Source: Gemmatimonadota bacterium (GTDB lineage: Bacteria > Gemmatimonadota > Gemmatimonadetes > Gemmatimonadales > GWC2-71-9). Taken from it: a stretch of 44,423 bases of DNA. The notes beneath the pieces are model-generated. The model made no database searches. It was not told where the DNA came from and saw nothing but the letters and a program-made list of their open reading frames with translations. Location: positions 1 to 44,423 of the forward strand of contig QKDC01000157.1 of NCBI GenBank assembly GCA_003246755.1, in the 5' to 3' direction. Of this stretch, positions 26,731 to 27,291 are shown in pieces. The position numbers and the translations under genes are program-made. Position 1 is the first letter of the stretch. Every line of letters begins with the position of its first letter.

Positions 26731-27291
26731 TCACGACCCAGCCATCGTCTTCGCCACCGCCGCCTCGAGTTCACGATAGGCAGATGCGTCCACCTCGCGA
26801 AACGGTGCCATCACCTCTGCGATCTTTCCTTCGCGATCGATGATGAAGAGTGAGCGATTGTCGATGTTCCGTCCGGGTACGGTCGCGCCGTAGAGACGAC
26901 CCACGTCGCCCGAGATATCGCTCAGGAACATGAATGGGTAGTTCTTGTCTCTGGCCCAGGAATGCAGCGCCGAATCCGGGTCGGTGCTGATCGCGAGTAG
27001 GGTCACTCCCTCACCATTGTTGAAGATCTTCGCGTACTGATCACGGTACGCGTCCATTTGAATCGTTCAACCACTACTCCGGGCGCGATAGAAGAATGCG
27101 ATTACGACGACCTGACCTCGGAAATCACGGAGACTCACCAGCTCGCCGGTACCAGTTCGATCGGCCGAAATCAGAGTGAAATCGGGTGCCTCGGTTCCCA
27201 CTTCGAGAGGTCGAGGTGGTTCGGCCTGCTGTGCCTGAAGCGGACCCGCGAGGAGCGCCGGAATCACAGCGGCCAAGAGCAGTCGGTTCAT
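26731..27291 (-). CDS. selenocysteine-containing exported peroxiredoxin (AhpC/TSA family), in-frame TGA (Sec) at 27069..27067
   Basis: MNRLLLAAVIPALLAGPLQAQQAEPPRPLEVGTEAPDFTLISADRTGTGELVSLRDFRGQVVVIAFFYRARSSG-[TGA]-TIQMDAYRDQYAKIFNNGEGVTLLAISTDPDSALHSWARDKNYPFMFLSDISGDVGRLYGATVPGRNIDNRSLFIIDREGKIAEVM...; the two track ORFs (27067-27513 and 26731-27057) are in the same frame and TGA occupies the peroxidatic Cys position (S-x-x-U for T-x-x-C). Confidence 0.85.
27031..27052 (-). promoter_or_regulatory. candidate bacterial SECIS hairpin
   Basis: Minus-strand RNA after UGA: ACGAUUCAAAUGGA-CGCGUAC-CGUGAUCA-GUACGCG; perfect 7-bp stem, 8-nt loop with G at position 2, loop begins 21 nt after the UGA. 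Confidence 0.75.

Follow-up and report, generated by a model that had tools for sequence, protein, structure and literature searches.

A peroxiredoxin gene with an internal UGA codon

The window, a 44,423-nucleotide stretch of contig QKDC01000157.1 from a Gemmatimonadota bacterium, carries on its minus strand a gene of the AhpC/TSA peroxiredoxin family that contains an in-frame TGA (Table 1). The first-pass annotation of this DNA had described two adjacent open reading frames as the halves of one peroxiredoxin split only by this codon. Our analysis confirms a single gene, since the Pfam AhpC-TSA match (PF00578, E 2.3e-27) spans residues 31-159 of the joined frame and runs across the TGA. Translated with TGA as selenocysteine (Sec, U), the 186-residue frame reads MNRLLLAAVIPALLAGPLQAQQ...FFYRARSSGUTIQMDAYRDQYA... 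and holds one internal TGA and no Cys, as had been stated. In an alignment with M. tuberculosis AhpE, residue 75 is matched to the active-site Cys, so that U falls at the peroxidatic position proposed for it. Because the gene's own terminator is also TGA, this codon serves as an ordinary stop in the window as well, again in agreement with the annotation.

Table 1. Positions of the peroxiredoxin gene, its elements and its neighbours in the window (both strands considered)
Feature	Position	Strand	Basis or remark
Predicted exported 1-Sec peroxiredoxin gene (AhpC/TSA family), 186 aa with Sec75	26731..27291	-	Stop TGA 26733-26731; sequence, Pfam, orthologs, predicted fold
In-frame TGA, read as Sec75, at the peroxidatic cysteine position	27067..27069	-	AhpE alignment; TGA in all Sec-type orthologs, TGC/TGT in others
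Active-site motif Y68-R-A-R-S-S-G-U75, Tyr68 at the motif Pro site	27067..27090	-	Aligned homologs
Signal-peptide-like N-terminus (MNRLLLAAVIPALLAGPLQAQQ)	27226..27291	-	Sequence; hydrophobic stretch and AxA-like site in homologs (crude score)
bSECIS-type hairpin CGCGUAC[CGUGAUCA]GUACGCG	27031..27052	-	Fold; silent sites nearly invariant and outer pair covarying in 71 Sec orthologs
GSDH-type (glucose/sorbosone dehydrogenase) gene, upstream	27288..28535	-	Pfam PF07995, E 3.1e-10; 4-nt overlap (ATGA) with the peroxiredoxin start
Threonine synthase (ThrC)	25452-26726	+	
Homoserine kinase	24502-25455	+	
EttA	28634-30313	+	

The equivalent of the T-x-x-C motif is S-S-G-U in this protein, Ser being a known alternative to Thr. 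An AlphaFold2 model in which TGA was read as Cys reached a mean predicted local distance difference test score (pLDDT) of 91.3 and a predicted template modelling score (pTM) of 0.84. The model matches peroxiredoxins, including the AhpE structure 1xxu (33% identity, TMt 0.87), and residue 75 lies near the beginning of a helix formed by residues 73-84. By a crude score that looks for a hydrophobic stretch and an AxA-like site, the N-terminus is signal-peptide-like in 69/71 Sec and 25/27 Cys homologs, which is consistent with export of the protein.

Within the class (Gemmatimonadota), 399 genomes were searched for orthologs, and 302 gave a match with E no higher than 1e-25. A hand count among the matches listed found a copy with an internal TGA in 123 genomes and only non-TGA (Cys) copies in 17; most of the best-scoring orthologs likewise have exactly one TGA. 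In every homolog fetched, the codon aligned with residue 75 is TGA in the Sec type and TGC or TGT in the others, never TAA or TAG, which bears out the expectation of Cys or U at this residue. SelB (E up to 1e-60) was detected in 116 of the 123 TGA genomes vs one of the 17 Cys-only genomes (Fisher p about 9e-15); because the sequences share ancestry, neither the Fisher values nor the shuffling figure given below are strict probabilities. It had also been anticipated that a gene caller would mis-split this gene, and 61 of the best 120 relatives in the protein collection start with MDAYRDQYA, being C-terminal halves called from the ATG after the UGA. Some related genomes carry Sec and Cys peroxiredoxin copies in tandem (loci L079, L080, L081, L085, L096, L100, L101 and L104). 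Peroxiredoxins from Acidimicrobiales (L146, L153) have UGA at the same residue, keep the motif Pro discussed below and have a similar hairpin loop (CGUGAU/CGUGAC).

Decoding of the UGA

A hairpin of the bacterial selenocysteine insertion sequence (bSECIS) type lies downstream of the UGA; the first-pass annotation had advised a search with bSECISearch or Infernal. It consists of a 7-bp stem and an 8-nt loop whose second and third positions are G and U, with 21 nt separating the UGA from the loop, and it folds with -10.5 kcal/mol over 48 nt. All of these values are within the published limits for bSECIS elements, namely a stem of 4-16 bp, a loop of 3-9 nt, G in the first two loop positions, a distance of 16-37 nt from the UGA and a minimum free energy of at most -7.5 (PMC13188914). 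Across 71 distinct Sec genes, the codons GCG TAC CGT GAT CAG TAC (+18 to +35) hardly vary at their silent sites, whereas the same positions in 27 Cys genes show varied codon use. The 7-bp stem is intact in 60/71 Sec vs 2/27 Cys genes (p about 1e-12). Its outermost pair, 17-38, joins two third-codon positions and occurs as C-G in 23, G-C in 21 and U-A in 16 genes. Pairing is kept here in 61/71 genes, against 27.5 expected from shuffling and a maximum of 42 in 20,000 shuffles, and the mutual information of 1.34 is the highest among 6,786 column pairs (the second-highest value is 0.55). As judged from these alignments, the comparison shows that the hairpin is selectively maintained in the Sec genes.

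The window's genome (3.15 Mb in 190 contigs, 95.8% complete) also contains selB (308 bits), selA (523 bits) and selD (363 bits). SelD is itself encoded by a UGA gene, HLSHGAG-U-ACKLG (L018, G000:C127:17745-18662). A second UGA redoxin in the genome, GHW-U-PYCARQ (L025, G000:C17:1958-2398), has a hairpin of its own, CAGCUC-GGU-GAGCUG, and is related to SelL/ResA-like models while scoring under their cut-offs.

The first-pass annotation had named an assembly error and a pseudogene as what would overturn its interpretation. If the true codon were TGC or TGT, a single wrong base would suffice, and the assembly is fragmented; 123 genomes of the class, however, have TGA here, amid frozen silent sites that are not seen in the Cys genes, and we regard this explanation as negligible. 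A nonsense mutation in a pseudogene, or two separate short proteins, might seem to accord with the 61 database entries that start after the UGA. Yet the interruption is TGA only, never TAA or TAG, and always at the catalytic position, the flanking frames are conserved at about 50% identity, and the hairpin is maintained. Moreover, no scattered stops or frameshifts were seen in close relatives, and a separate C-terminal fragment would be without the catalytic residue, so that this explanation too is extremely improbable. Since more than 100 independent genomes carry the TGA form, sequencing error and pseudogene formation are excluded. Decoding of the UGA as another amino acid, by near-cognate readthrough (e.g. 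as Trp) or as Cys, would accord with the missing tRNA-Sec described below; against it stand the presence of selA, selB and selD, the substitution of Cys in relatives and the co-occurrence of SelB with the TGA form, and we consider it very unlikely, if slightly less so than the other alternatives.

Several observations weigh against decoding as Sec. Although the first-pass annotation was right to expect selA, selB and selD, its fourth component, tRNA-Sec, was found in the assembly neither by two covariance models nor by a DNA pattern. Those RF01852 matches that were examined proved to be Leu, Ser or other tRNAs. The second covariance model, derived from the tRNA-Sec genes of 16 relatives, gave only weak matches, at sites already among those of RF01852. 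SelB was undetected in 7/123 TGA genomes. Finally, the folding energy of the hairpin is no lower than that of shuffled sequences (z -0.74; -0.62 in another run); energy alone is therefore no evidence, and the case for the hairpin rests on how Sec genes compare with Cys genes. As for the tRNA, it was found above cut-off in 49 of 61 genomes of the same family, with anticodon UCA in 6/6 checked, and a gap in the assembly is the likely explanation of its absence. Synteny is unable to reveal such a gap because the neighbourhood of tRNA-Sec differs between the two relatives inspected. The seven TGA genomes in which SelB was undetected are likely explained by incomplete assemblies.

Taken together, these results support the selenoprotein interpretation of the first-pass annotation. 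We consider it nearly certain that the gene encodes a peroxiredoxin, probably exported, with Sec at the peroxidatic residue, UGA75 being decoded via SelB and tRNA-Sec under the direction of the bSECIS, which would act from its place just downstream within the coding sequence. Held in place by the conserved Thr/Ser72 and Arg146, the selenolate would attack a hydroperoxide and be converted to a selenenic acid, which an external thiol or protein would then reduce in a 1-Sec mechanism. Such an external reductant would be required because the protein has no other Cys or Sec. The enzyme may help to remove peroxide associated with the neighbouring sugar dehydrogenase. The GSDH gene, often together with ThrC, adjoins the peroxiredoxin gene in about ten relatives.

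The motif proline

Peroxiredoxins share a PxxxT/SxxC motif (PMC7417364), and according to a 2026 review, PxxxTxxU is highly conserved among those with Sec (PMC13188914). The change from Pro to Tyr in the window protein, on which the first-pass annotation had not remarked, is the less ordinary part of the case. Every one of the 27 Cys homologs has Pro at position 68, as does every one of the 80 homologs from outside the family, three of them with Sec, but Pro stands there in only 14/75 Sec homologs; the remaining Sec homologs have Phe (36), Tyr (23) or rare other residues. Thr/Ser72 and Arg146 are retained throughout the homologs, the former in 74/75 of the Sec type (one has Gly) and the latter in 75/75, and both Ser72 and Arg146 are present in the window protein. 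No mention of an aromatic replacement of the motif Pro was found in the literature searched (open PMC text only).

On a tree built with the Sec/Cys and Pro columns masked, the minimum number of changes is at least 10 for Sec/Cys and 7 for Pro/non-Pro. Cys rows nested within Sec rows without Pro keep the Pro, except for P0004, a Cys homolog with Tyr at this site. On well-supported branches, the two traits change jointly in 1-3 of 4 pairs and oppositely in none, and a sign test of Sec against Pro loss on these branches was not significant, the pairs being too few. The association between Sec and Pro loss is thus clear in the counts of aligned sequences but not proven independent of ancestry.

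The aromatic residue at the Pro site is probably tolerated or even favoured because a selenolate would need less activation by the pocket, and we infer that the motif Pro is less needed when Sec occupies the active site. More broadly, Sec may re-shape or relax the active site such that the Pro becomes dispensable and Phe or Tyr takes its place, giving rise to a structurally distinct, exported 1-Sec subfamily while Cys lineages almost always keep Pro; we offer this tentatively, at slightly less than an even chance. If the loss of Pro is caused by Sec, these proteins form a natural series in which to probe the role of the motif Pro in Cys peroxiredoxins, and also a way to ask why Sec enzymes manage without it.

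Relation to known peroxiredoxins

With the genes described here, a common environmental phylum gains a large group of selenoproteins that are probably exported and for the most part wrongly annotated; Sec and Cys versions coexist in related genomes, even in tandem. The papers on Sec peroxiredoxins that we searched for the phylum make no mention of Gemmatimonadota, which, in a search confined to open PMC text, does not establish the absence of earlier reports of a selenoprotein peroxiredoxin from this phylum. In that text, a single paper brings selenoproteins, Gemmatimonadota and peroxiredoxins together, and its subject is a kinase-like domain.

Among solved structures, the best sequence match and a close fold match is the 1-Cys peroxiredoxin AhpE (Rv2238c), in which the peroxidatic residue, the Thr/Ser and the Arg align with those of the window protein; AhpE differs in having Cys for Sec and in keeping the motif Pro. 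The Cys-type homologs of Gemmatimonadota, which are peroxiredoxin Q/BCP-like, share about 50% identity, a similar signal-peptide-like N-terminus and a single Cys at the same place. They differ in the Cys codon, the retained motif Pro and a hairpin that is not maintained, and they come mostly from SelB-less genomes. The NCBIfam model of the thioredoxin-dependent peroxiredoxin PrxU (NF040737) recognises the window protein as a homolog at 55.5 bits; this is far under the curated cut-off of 270 bits, and the protein is therefore not a member of that equivalog.

A further close parallel is provided by the Sec peroxiredoxins of the TxxU type (PF00578), with which the window protein shares the peroxiredoxin fold, Sec in a T/SxxU motif and a bSECIS downstream (PMC13188914, PMC2398784, PMC5029168). 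Unlike those with PxxxTxxU, most Sec members here have Phe or Tyr for Pro, and the signal-peptide-like N-terminus is a further difference from the Sec peroxiredoxins described. Because of its Tyr68 and the presence of Pro in so few of its Sec homologs, the window protein is a variant rather than a typical Sec-containing peroxiredoxin, although the Pro of PxxxTxxU lies outside the TxxU definition itself. Sec peroxiredoxins with TxxU are already known; the chemistry is thus of a known kind, and it is the active-site variant that is unusual.
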